Shown here: positions 10,550-52,843 of the stretch, one piece after another | How positions within the stretch are numbered: the first letter of the stretch is position 1 | Layout of the letters: the number at the start of each line of letters is the position of its first letter | Assembly (NCBI RefSeq): GCF_011299595.1 | Contig: NZ_CP049867.1 | Coordinates: 372,001 to 436,000 of the forward strand | Length of the DNA stretch: 64,000 nucleotides | Direction of reading: 5' to 3' | From: Nocardioides sp. HDW12B | GTDB taxonomy: Bacteria; Actinomycetota; Actinomycetes; Propionibacteriales; Nocardioidaceae | Translations under genes and position numbers: made by a program | Notes under the pieces: generated by a model | Told to the model about the DNA's origin: nothing | The model's input: the letters and a program-made list of their open reading frames with translations, nothing else | Databases searched by the model: none

Positions 10550-11811
<1,262 letters not shown>

Positions 11812-15113: not shown

Positions 15114-16235
15114 TCAGTTCCAGGAGTCGTTCCACCCGTCGACGTCGGAGGCCTTGCGCTCCGGCGGACCGGTGTAGACGGCCGAGGGTCGGATCAGGCG
15201 CCCGGTCTTCTTCTGCTCGAGGATGTGCGCGGACCAGCCGGCCGTGCGCGCGCACGTGAACATCGAGGTGAACATCCGCGGCGGCACCTCGGCGAAGTCG
15301 AGGACGATCGCGGCCCAGAACTCCACGTTGGTCTCGAGCACACGGTCGGGGCGCCGCTCCCGCAGCTCGGCCAGCGCCGCCTTCTCCAGCTCCTCGGCGA
15401 CCTCGTAGCGGGGGGCGTTCAGCTCACGCGCCGTGCGCCGCAGCACGCGGGCGCGGGGGTCCTCGGCCCGGTAGACCCGGTGCCCGAAGCCCATGAGCCG
15501 CTCCTTGTTGTCGAGCAGCTCCTTGACGTACGCCGCCGCGTCGCCGCGCTTCTCGACCTCCTCGATCATGCCGAGGACGCGGGAGGGGGCACCGCCGTGG
15601 AGGGGACCGCTCATGGCGCCGATCGCGCCGGAGAAGGCCGCGGCCACGTCGGCGCCGGTGGAGGTGATGACGCGGGCGGTGAACGTCGAGGCGTTCATGC
15701 CGTGCTCGGCCGCCGAGCTCCAGTAGGCGTCGATGGCCTTGGCCTGGTCGGGGTCGGCCTCGCCCTTCCAGCGGATCAGGAAGCGGTCGGCGAGGGTCTC
15801 GCCCTTGTCGACCTCGCTCTGGGAGACCACGGGCTGGCCGAGGCCACGCGCGGACTGCGCGGCGTACGACAGCACCATGACCGCGACGCGGCTGAGGTCC
15901 TCGCGGGCCTGCTCGTCGGAGATGTCGTAGGTCTGCTGCATGCCGAAGGTCGGGGCCAGCATGGCCACCGCCGCCTGCACGTCGGCGCGGACCTCGCCGG
16001 TGTGGATCGGGAGGTTGAAGGGCTCGGCGGGCGGGAGGCCCGGCTCGTAGGAGCCGTCGATGAGGAGACCCCAGACCTTCTCGAACGGGACGCGGCCGAC
16101 GAGCTCCTCGATGTCGACCCCGCGGTAGCGCAGCGCGGAGCCCTCCTTGTCCGGCTCGGCGATCTGGGTCTCGAAGGCGACGACACCCTCCAGTCCGTGG
16201 TGCACCTCGGGTGTGTCCTGCTCGGACGATGACAT
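15114..16235 (-). CDS. citA: Citrate synthase (type 2, short form)
   Basis: A 373-residue citrate synthase condensing acetyl-CoA and oxaloacetate. Signature regions include GPLHGGAPSRVLGM and MGFGHRVYRAEDPRARVL with the active-site histidines, and the C-terminal FTCARTAGWSAHILEQ. The size fits the short homodimeric form of Gram-positives. ATG 16235 is preceded by a good AAGGAG. The degenerate M16-like gene follows in the same operon and pdxH is divergent. Confidence 0.93.
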   Translation of the reverse strand: MSSSEQDTPEVHHGLEGVVAFETQIAEPDKEGSALRYRGVDIEELVGRVPFEKVWGLLIDGSYEPGLPPAEPFNLPIHTGEVRADVQAAVAMLAPTFGMQQTYDISDEQAREDLSRVAVMVLSYAAQSARGLGQPVVSQSEVDKGETLADRFLIRWKGEADPDQAKAIDAYWSSAAEHGMNASTFTARVITSTGADVAAAFSGAIGAMSGPLHGGAPSRVLGMIEEVEKRGDAAAYVKELLDNKERLMGFGHRVYRAEDPRARVLRRTARELNAPRYEVAEELEKAALAELRERRPDRVLETNVEFWAAIVLDFAEVPPRMFTSMFTCARTAGWSAHILEQKKTGRLIRPSAVYTGPPERKASDVDGWNDSWN

Positions 16236-16329
16236 GCAGCCACTCCTTCGTCGGGGTTGTCTCCTCTGCCCGGGATTCTGCCCCACGTGTGGGCGCCGTG
16301 GGTCGGATGTGGCTGCCCGGTCCGCTGCC

Positions 16330-16335
16330 TACCCT
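16330..16335 (+). promoter_or_regulatory. -10 box of leaderless pdxH
   Basis: TACCCT ends 6 nt before GTG 16342. The intervening GGGGAG is also a weak ribosome-binding sequence, so a leadered alternative is possible. Confidence 0.45.
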
Positions 16336-16341
16336 GGGGAG

Positions 16342-17013
16342 GTGGACCACACGCCAGCCGGACGACCCGCCCCCGACCTCGCCGCCCTGCGCGAGGAGTA
16401 CACGCTCGGGGGACTCGCCGAGAGCGACGTGGACCCCGACCCGCTGGTGATGCTGCGCCGGTGGGTGGACGACGCGGTGGCGGCGCAGATCGCCGAGCCG
16501 ACGGCGATGGTGCTCTCCACGGTCGACGCCACGGGCCGGGTCGCGAGCCGGACGGTCCTGCTCAAGGGGCTCGACGAGCGCGGCGTGGTCTTCTTCTCCC
16601 ACTACACCTCCCGCAAGGGCGAGGAGCTGGCCGGGCAGCCGCAGTGCGCGGTGCACCTGGGGTGGTACGCCCTCGAGCGGCAGGTCCGCCTCGAGGGGCG
16701 GGCCGAGCGGCTGCCGGAGTCCGAGAGCGACGCCTACTTCGCCAGCCGGCCGCGCGGGTCGCAGCTGGGGGCCTGGGCCTCGCCGCAGTCCACCGTGGTG
16801 GAGGGTCGGGAGGCGCTGGAGGCGCGGTACGCCGAGGCGGAGGCCCGGTTCGCCGGCGGTGACGTGCCGCGCCCGCCGTACTGGGGTGGGGTGCGGGTCG
16901 TGCCCGACCGCGTCGAGCTGTGGCAGGGCCGCCCCAGCCGCATGCACGACCGGCTGCGCTACTCCTGGAGCCCGACGCAGCACGCCTGGGCCCTGGAACG
17001 CCTCGCTCCCTGA
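16342..17013 (+). CDS. pdxH: Pyridoxamine 5'-phosphate oxidase
   Basis: A 223-residue FMN enzyme oxidising pyridoxamine or pyridoxine 5'-phosphate to pyridoxal phosphate. The FMN-binding stretch SRTVLLKGLDERGVVFFSHY and the C-terminal signature VELWQGRPSRMHDRLRY are intact. GTG 16342 gives the expected N-terminus. The gene is divergent from citrate synthase. It may supply PLP for serC and rocD, but that is general metabolism and not evidence of a local pathway. Confidence 0.92.
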   Translation: MDHTPAGRPAPDLAALREEYTLGGLAESDVDPDPLVMLRRWVDDAVAAQIAEPTAMVLSTVDATGRVASRTVLLKGLDERGVVFFSHYTSRKGEELAGQPQCAVHLGWYALERQVRLEGRAERLPESESDAYFASRPRGSQLGAWASPQSTVVEGREALEARYAEAEARFAGGDVPRPPYWGGVRVVPDRVELWQGRPSRMHDRLRYSWSPTQHAWALERLAP

Positions 17014-17029: not shown

Positions 17030-17047
17030 GCGGCGGAAAAATGCAGA

Positions 17048-17105
17048 CGCCCCGCAGGCGGTTGATGACTCTCCGTTCGGACGAGCACGGAACGCCTGCG
17101 GGGCG
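17048..17105 (-). terminator. Intrinsic terminator of the predicted small RNA
   Basis: Perfect 13-bp arms CGCCTGCGGGGCG and CGCCCCGCAGGCG (17093-17105 and 17048-17060) carry a nested TCCGT/ACGGA stem. On the minus strand the stem is followed by TCTGCATTTTT (T-run at 17041-17037). Confidence 0.55.
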
Positions 17106-17178
17106 GGTGACTGCTGTTGGATTCGCCTGCGCGCACTCGAACGAAGGTCGCTCGAAGGTTGCCGACGACGGTGCGCTG

Positions 17179-17217
17179 CTAGCGAGCAGCCACCTCACGT
17201 GTCCGCAAAGAACTCAT
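17179..17217 (-). CDS. 12-codon leader-like ORF
   Basis: ATG to TAG encodes MSSLRTREVAAR. The upstream AAAGGAGGTGGTCC is nearly a full complement of the 16S rRNA 3' end and sits about 10 nt before the ATG, far stronger than other sites in this window. The peptide resembles no family I recognise. Confidence 0.45.
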   Translation of the reverse strand: MSSLRTREVAAR

Positions 17218-17249
17218 TCTCTGGACCACCTCCTTTCCCGTGTACGACC

Positions 17250-17279
17250 ACGGTAGATCGGCGGTTCACGTCCCCACAA
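17250..17279 (-). promoter_or_regulatory. Promoter of the predicted small RNA
   Basis: TTGTGG (17279-17274) and TACCGT (17255-17250) are separated by 18 bp, a good fit to a housekeeping sigma promoter reading left. Confidence 0.45.
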
Positions 17280-24492: not shown

Positions 24493-24572
24493 GCCGGGTC
24501 CGGCGCGGACGTCTGCGGCTCGACGTCGCGGCGCGCGGCACTGCGTCGTGGTGGTGGTGCCGTGCGCGGTGG

Positions 24573-24645
24573 TGCCCCAGGCAAGAGTCGAACTTGCGAC
24601 CTTTCGCTTAGGAGGCGGCTGCTCTATCCACTGAGCTACTGGGGC
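24573..24645 (-). tRNA. tRNA-Arg (anticodon CCT)
   Basis: A 73-nt cloverleaf with a perfect acceptor stem GCCCCAG/CTGGGGC, D-arm AGCTCAGTGGATAGAGC, anticodon CCT within CTCCTAA, and a T-arm GTTCGACTC. Discriminator A is followed by an encoded CCA (24572-24570). It reads AGG codons. Confidence 0.96.

Positions 24646-52766: not shown

Positions 52767-52843
<77 letters not shown>

Follow-up and report, generated by a model that had tools for sequence, protein, structure and literature searches.

The window analysed here, a 64,000-nucleotide (nt) stretch of Nocardioides sp. HDW12B (contig NZ_CP049867.1, positions 372,001 to 436,000), carries on its minus strand a free-standing small RNA (sRNA) of the Ms_IGR-5 family, RF02471, and in our judgement the case that this RNA captures ribosomes and is remodelled by its own translation stands about evenly balanced. 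The locus itself is a genuine RNA element, beyond chance. As far as can be judged from 245 distinct relatives, the comparison shows a short open reading frame (ORF) to be conserved without conservation of the encoded peptide, and a frame that is kept while its peptide seems irrelevant suggests that the RNA works by being translated and not via a protein. In addition to this peptide-free ORF, the relatives newly brought out a Shine-Dalgarno (SD) sequence with 18 possible pairs to 16S ribosomal RNA (rRNA), a helix (H1) together with a pseudoknot, and copies carried under the labels of other phyla. The wide occurrence of the RNA (102 of 237 genera, as well as the other-phylum labels), taken with the conserved features that face the ribosome, suggests a role in translation.

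Identification of the RNA and Its Family

The first-pass annotation of this DNA had described an unannotated, structured minus-strand RNA, and the free-standing unit was confirmed at that place with its promoter, SD, ORF, structured middle between ORF and terminator, and terminator all present (Table 1). The promoter TTGTGG-N18-TACCGT was located at 17279-17250, and the terminator stem of 13 base pairs (bp) with its T run at 17105-17037. The word unannotated fails at the family level, as Rfam already lists RF02471 (Ms_IGR-5, "Actinobacteria sRNA"), a known bacterial family. In cmscan, RF02471 matched at 17042-17243 with 116.6 bits (cut-off 45) and an E value of 1.3e-25 over the window; the match is full-length (model 1-184 of 184), lies well above the curated gathering threshold, and is the only one in the 4.19-Mb genome. 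The fold z-scores were -3.8 (17246-17036) and -5.1 (17192-17037), with 0 of 200 shuffles as good in each case. A strict scan for the sigma-70 consensus found no promoter, and a comparative test was used in its stead: TTG and TANNNT stand at the expected places in 66 of 81 relatives of the class, compared with 0 of 324 upstream control windows, and among these relatives the predicted promoter is shown to be conserved.

According to previous studies, which are represented here by excerpts of their text, relatives of this RNA are transcribed in Streptomyces lividans (PMC8079986), and one is a transcription unit in Streptomyces avermitilis (PMC8780764). The transcript ncMSMEG15794c of Mycobacterium smegmatis overlaps IGR-5 (PMC10454040), and for the MS_IGR-5 homologues of M. 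abscessus and M. smegmatis, ribosome-protected reads were reported (PMC4974804). From its map position, the Streptomyces copy may correspond to scr4389, a name given in the excerpt of PMC8388888. No function for Ms_IGR-5 was found in the literature searched, and the RNA is not named in the excerpts of PMC4109619, PMC4046766, and PMC5521070.

Conservation of the Reading Frame

Three means served to collect relatives: the RF02471 model, a purpose-built model (R1) that covers the 5' domain, and a pattern scan over genome contigs. Copies with an identical 5' domain entered the counts once only, which reduced the Rfam-found copies from 126 to 121 and the R1-found copies from 60 to 56, and the 245 distinct copies derive from 121 + 60 + 80. 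The 60 R1 loci, mostly better-scoring ones, were fetched from 81 genomes newly matched by R1, and the pattern scan matched at least 120 loci, 80 of which were examined. The ORF and pairing counts exclude 20 viral loci as well as L141 and L146, which have no match to the motif expression. As the stop-codon columns are part of the Rfam and R1 models, stop conservation in those sets is partly due to selection, whereas the pattern fixes neither start nor stop.

The 12-codon ORF noted earlier behind the SD is real. An ORF of 10-19 codons with its stop at a fixed place lies directly after the SD in 239 of the 245 distinct relatives. Its start codon follows the SD core by 7-13 nt, and in 238 of these cases its stop is found at +14 or +15 from the first base of an internal SD-like motif, GAGGTG. 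Among the 121 Rfam-found copies, 119 have the stop at one place (TAG 102, TGA 12, TAA 5), and in 118 an in-frame start follows GGAGG at a distance of 8-13 nt (TTG 52, ATG 38, GTG 10, CTG 9, ATC 5, ATT 3, ATA 1). Canonical starts (ATG, GTG, or TTG) were observed in 100 of these 121 copies, while shuffled loops gave a mean of 14.6 and a maximum of 28 in 1000 trials; by frame, canonical starts numbered 100 in that of the stop and 6 and 7 in the other two. The ORF is present as well in 55 of the 56 distinct R1-found copies, where 51 have a canonical start (shuffles: mean 6.9, maximum 15), and in 78 of the 80 pattern-found copies. The spacing from SD to start varies base by base, and that from start to GAGGTG is 21, 24, 27, or 30 nt. 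In the frame-shifted copies L056, L061, L062, and L065, the latter spacing is 16 or 22 nt and the stop lies at +14 and not +15, which means that the other frame still closes; altogether, 12 of the 239 ORFs end at +14, i.e., in the other frame relative to GAGGTG. Moved stops were also seen in the Rfam-found set, one codon later in L131 and five codons later in L134 (TGG for TAG).

The alignments thus compared show start, frame, and stop to be strongly kept, as in a small-protein gene, and selection on the amino-acid sequence was not found. Among the 12-codon ORFs, of which there are 78, variation (entropy 1.1-1.8 bits) affects every position of codons 2-4 and the first position of codon 5, whereas codons 8 and 9 (GAG GTG) keep the same third base in all 78; a peptide-coding gene would show the opposite pattern. 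The A+T content is 68% in codons 2-4 and 28% in the upstream flanks, as expected at an open, translated start. The conservation of stems and peptide in relatives had been proposed as a check by the first-pass annotation; the stems and the ORF are conserved, but the peptide is not.

Pairing with the 16S rRNA Tail

The mature 16S rRNA ends at the end of CUGGAUCACCUCCUUUCU, its last base being by convention U. The two 16S genes of this genome end in that sequence, and the RNA can form 18 contiguous pairs with the tail, two of them G-U, which bears out the earlier description of a ribosome-binding site nearly fully complementary to 16S rRNA. Ten other copies can form 16-18 pairs, counted against one 16S tail, whose outermost upstream base was assumed, and not against the 16S rRNA of their own genomes; for 11 loci paired with one tail, the duplex energy ranges from -25.7 to -29.9 kcal/mol. 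The genome contains four occurrences of the 12-mer AGGAGGTGRTCC: the present one, one antisense to each of its two 16S genes, and one at 10800 that lacks the preceding AAA. The SD-adjacent letters of 60 loci read GGTCC in 55, GATCC in 4, and GGTCG in 1. In Escherichia coli, an SD of 6 nt was reported to be better than shorter or longer ones (PMC2176067, excerpt), and therefore the length of the extended SD is not explained by initiation alone.

A serious alternative, though one that we consider clearly less probable, is that the RNA acts chiefly by sequestering small subunits, or by slowing initiation, via its long 16S pairing beside the pseudoknot, comparable to the entrapment known for rpsO, and that the ORF merely frees the trapped ribosome. 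The complementarity far exceeds the length useful for initiation, the duplex energies given above point the same way, and the SD-adjacent GGTCC is kept (55 of 60) though the ORF letters with which it could pair change, as would be expected with 16S rRNA as the partner. However, an open frame and a fixed stop would be superfluous in a pure trap, and both are strongly kept. Pseudoknots of the rpsO type, as commonly described, likewise place the SD and start codon beside a pseudoknot opened by the ribosome, and on purely comparative evidence a pseudoknot adjoins the SD and start codon here as well; unlike the rpsO type, this RNA is free-standing with a frame of 10-19 codons, no ribosomal protein gene follows in the window, and no regulated gene follows the RNA in the loci checked.

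It seems improbable that the RNA serves as an antisense guide or chaperone of 16S 3'-end maturation by pairing with the tail of 16S rRNA or its precursor. The paired stretch does extend from CUGGAUCACC to ...CCUUUCU, where the 16S gene ends, but pairing stops at the U taken as the mature 16S end, the next precursor base (A) faces a G, and the conservation of start codon, frame, and stop would be left unexplained.

The Caulobacter sRNA CC2171 (RF01867) also has GAAAGGAGGUGAUCCAG, complementary to the 16S tail, near the 5' end of its consensus. Homology with CC2171 was rejected at 17.2 bits against a cut-off of 75 (window 17245-17170), and the CC2171 model matched only Caulobacter among 14 control genomes and nothing in the present genome. 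The alphaproteobacterial CC2171 may be an independent or very distant counterpart.

Helices and Pseudoknot

Helix H1 encloses the SD and start codon and was seen in AU, CG, GC, and UA forms, with 97.1% of the lettered cells pairing over 98 sequences (alignment A1, 98 of the 121 copies). The covariation score of H1 plus H2, a helix candidate described below, is 0.344, compared with a shuffled mean of 0.113, and 0 of 500 shuffles reach it. In the pattern-found set, at least three of the four H1 pairs form in 68 of 80 copies in a fixed register and in 74 when a one-base shift is allowed. The Acidobacteria-labelled copies L237, L274, L286, and L291 have a CACTG-like 5' arm that does not pair at the H1 position but, by eye, seems pairable with CAGT further downstream, in a different topology.

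H3 could be located in 163 of 177 loci, and the pseudoknot was counted in 143 of these. Its loop motif was picked by position and not by ORF complementarity, whereas the inner motif letters were fixed by the search, so that only the outer and y pairs count as tests. The pairs seen include GGACC/GGTCC, GGACG/CGTCC, GGACA/TGTCC, and GGACT/AGTCC, as well as GGATG/CATCC, CGACC/GGTCG, TGACC/GGTCA, and AGACC/GGTCT. One outer pair is Watson-Crick in 134 of 143 loci (shuffled mean 102, maximum 113), and the other is Watson-Crick in 95 and G-U in 5 (shuffled mean 53, maximum 69, G-U counted). The mean run is 5.14 within loci versus 4.49 between loci, and for 100 of 106 loci, the stretch where it was expected does contain the exact complement of the ORF 4-mer. 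In L117, L123, L130, L131, and L142, the ORF GGAC has become GGAT, and the partner reads ATCC in the four with a located loop (not L142), a recent and clean compensatory pair. In the minimum-energy fold of the window, the UCC of the pseudoknot loop sits in a small stem instead. Judged by covariation among the relatives, compensation is shown for both H1 and the pseudoknot, and since both involve the coding strand, they have to be opened by a ribosome that translates the ORF. The pseudoknot, H1, H3, and the next helix all draw on one continuous strand, namely the latter half of the ORF together with its stop codon. The arms of H3 were found by complementarity, and its covariation is therefore biased upward.

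The consensus structure of RF02471 lacks H1, H3, and the pseudoknot and pairs the SD (model 14-19) with model 55-60 instead; for that SD helix no covariation was found, with 0 cells changed on both sides. The candidate H2, in which the SD-adjacent GGTCC pairs with the ORF GGAC, has 89.5% of cells paired, but both sides changed in one sequence only and the mean run is 4.32 within a locus versus 4.22 between loci; H2 was dropped in favour of the pseudoknot.

A further motif of the form A[AG]T[CAT]C precedes the H3 3' arm by no more than 14 nt in 153 of 226 loci; in a control stretch it was found in 4 of 226. This conserved AATCC-like motif, unpaired in the window's fold, together with the free-standing unit, would suit a trans-acting antisense sRNA with a conventional mRNA seed and a secondary ORF; we regard this explanation as quite unlikely, because the strongly conserved SD matches 16S rRNA and the strength of ORF conservation would be unexplained. 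Dual-function sRNAs such as SgrS and SR1 likewise combine an sRNA with a short ORF, but their protein is functional, whereas the present family keeps the frame without keeping the peptide.

Table 1. Features of the Ms_IGR-5 RNA locus in the window.
Feature	Positions	Strand	Remarks
-35 element TTGTGG	17274..17279	-	TTG at fixed distance in class relatives
-10 element TACCGT	17250..17255	-	18-nt spacer from -35
Ms_IGR-5 family RNA (RF02471)	17037..17244	-	5' end inferred from promoter and conserved ACAC
H1 5' arm CACG	17239..17242	-	pairs with 17196-17199
Extended SD GGAAAGGAGGTGGTCCAG	17221..17238	-	18 pairs, 2 of them G-U, with own 16S 3' region
12-codon ORF, ATG to TAG, coding MSSLRTREVAAR	17179..17217	-	same design in 239/245 distinct relatives
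Pseudoknot 5' strand GGAC (codons 5-6)	17201..17204	-	CGGAC can pair with GUCCG; compensatory changes
H1 3' arm CGTG	17196..17199	-	pairs with 17239-17242
Internal SD-like motif GAGGTG	17191..17196	-	stop codon begins 15 nt after its first base
H3 5' arm GGTGGCTGCT	17185..17194	-	pairs with AGCAGTCACC
AATCC motif	17119..17123	-	unpaired in fold, upstream of H3 3' arm
H3 3' arm AGCAGTCACC	17106..17115	-	pairs with GGTGGCTGCT
Terminator stem 5' arm CGCCCCGCAGGCG	17093..17105	-	13 bp with 17048..17060
Pseudoknot 3' strand GTCC	17079..17082	-	apical loop of terminal hairpin by Rfam alignment
Terminator stem 3' arm CGCCTGCGGGGCG	17048..17060	-	pairs with 17093..17105
T run TTTTT	17037..17041	-	sequence

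Genomic Setting

The first-pass annotation had seen the architecture of an attenuator leader, with no downstream gene on its strand. A citrate synthase gene (15114-16232) does follow on the minus strand, but it lies behind the convergent pdxH on the plus strand (ORF 16147-17013). Among eight relatives chosen from 13 listed loci and examined with rough gene calling, the downstream neighbours are pdxH (here and in L018), nitrobindin-like (L071 and L084), LigA (L059), luciferase-like (L046), NlpC/P60 (L129), metallo-beta-lactamase-like (L016), and ABC transporter (L115) genes. The neighbour is on the opposite strand in eight of the nine cases checked (seven of the eight relatives, plus pdxH; the exception is L016), and a rough orientation tally over 121 loci gave 47 on the same strand, 64 on the opposite strand, and 10 unassigned. 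A general synteny with citrate synthase was considered and rejected; a cluster of 22 loci may reflect it, with the protein family checked for the window's own ORF alone. Two tRNA genes, tRNA-Arg (CCT) at 24570-24645 (-) and tRNA-Ala (CGC) at 52767-52842 (+), are ordinary genes of the window.

A transcription attenuator leader, or a relic of one, is accordingly already disfavoured and in our view very unlikely: its anatomy of leader peptide plus terminator and the citrate synthase further downstream on the same strand speak for it, but the neighbours differ among lineages, mostly face the other way in the loci checked, and are mixed in the larger tally. No conserved co-directional gene was found directly downstream in the loci checked, and the attenuator leader is therefore not supported. 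In leader-peptide attenuators such as that of trp, as commonly described, a short ORF likewise overlaps a helix arm and a terminator lies downstream, but here the downstream gene is not conserved and the peptide sequence is free. The idea of a relic of a lost operon does not stand either, as the RNA recurs in 102 of the 237 genera sampled from the phylum, next to changing downstream genes. A gene for a functional 12-residue peptide is just as improbable: xTxEVAA[RSG] recurs in many copies and the ORF is kept, but the recurrent part is conserved at the RNA level (invariant third positions of GAG GTG, free codons 2-4), and the 12 of 239 ORFs that end in the other frame encode, among those listed, peptides such as MIETSGGGCS.

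Distribution

The RF02471 model matched 70 of 396 genomes of the phylum, 35 of these above the cut-off, 249 of 394 genomes of the class, and 0 of 14 named control genomes. R1 raised the first figure to 151 of 396 genomes, and usually one copy per genome was found. Two matches were seen in G057, G224, G466, and G700, by duplication or bin contamination. In genus g2 of the window's family, 11 of the 12 listed genomes have no RF02471 match, while the family's other listed genera have one, and loss of the RNA in this genus is possible.

Ten of the 80 pattern-found loci examined lie on contigs with non-actinobacterial labels (Acidobacteria/Acidobacteriota/Bryobacterales/Terriglobia 6, Deltaproteobacteria 2, Zixibacteria 1, Sumerlaeota 1). 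These labels were taken from metagenome bins, and individual contigs may be mislabelled; the label of L242, with 75% GC flanks and, by eye, Solirubrobacterales-like sequence, is doubtful. All ten copies possess the ORF, and three of the ten are above the Rfam cut-off. The four Bryobacterales/Terriglobia copies resemble each other and the Zixibacteria copy sits in 49% GC DNA, which speaks against contamination by high-GC actinobacteria. A phage origin was rejected: among 20 IMG/VR pattern matches, the fixed-place stop was found in none, three or four H1 pairs (two registers) in four, and an A-rich extended SD in L104 alone, and since no match combines the features, they were read as chance.

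Proposed Mode of Action

For an sRNA that captures ribosomes, the following course may be envisaged. A 30S subunit would bind the extended SD, and initiation would follow, most often on UUG. Translation of 10-15 codons in nearly all copies would melt the pseudoknot, H1, and H3 and would end where the internal GAGGUG can meet the anti-SD again, with a pause at the stop. The RNA might thus exist in two forms, one folded and untranslated, the other opened and occupied by a ribosome, and its activity or lifetime would report the number of free initiation-competent ribosomes. Candidate outputs of the opened or closed form are 30S sequestration, an exposed pairing region, and triggered decay. The earlier suggestions of a trans-acting or a ribosome-sensing RNA fit the present comparative evidence.

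Several observations weigh against this proposal. The RF02471 model did not detect the RNA in 145 of 394 class genomes and R1 found no match in 245 of 396 phylum genomes, through true absence or divergence, and the RNA is therefore not universal. Under the criteria used, the ORF is absent in 6 of the 245 relatives (L031, L053 with ATA only, L134, L171, L234, and L294). Fewer than three of the four H1 pairs form in 12 of the 80 pattern-found copies in the fixed register, and despite a one-base shift this still applies to L223, L235, L237, L274, L286, and L291. Little variation is seen in the middle variable pair of the pseudoknot (135 of 143, versus a mean of 131 and a maximum of 134 in shuffles), the loop motif is missing at the expected place in 17 and the ORF motif in 3 of the 163 loci with a located H3, and no pseudoknot partner was recognised in L056, L061, L062, and L065. 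As H2 is compensated in one sequence only, a simple two-state SD switch is not demonstrated. Moreover, the excerpt of PMC4974804 states that a large majority of characterised E. coli noncoding RNAs are also footprinted, and that clear signs of translation are missing for many RNAs protected by ribosomes.

More tentatively, and with somewhat less confidence than in the reading just outlined, the RNA may represent an unrecognised class of ribosome-programmed RNAs older than Actinomycetota. Such an RNA would pair with the whole free 16S tail and would keep its frame only for a set ribosome travel, opening of the pseudoknot, and parking at a stop beside a second SD, so that the act of translation would itself be the signal by which free ribosomes are measured or buffered.

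The Rfam entry, whose name restricts the family to Actinobacteria and whose model matched fewer than half as many genomes of the phylum as R1, would be extended by the present results in its taxonomic range and by two helices, a pseudoknot, and an ORF. Conservation of a frame without conservation of its peptide is unusual, and it opens regulation by the act of translation to a direct test in laboratory strains of M. smegmatis or Streptomyces.
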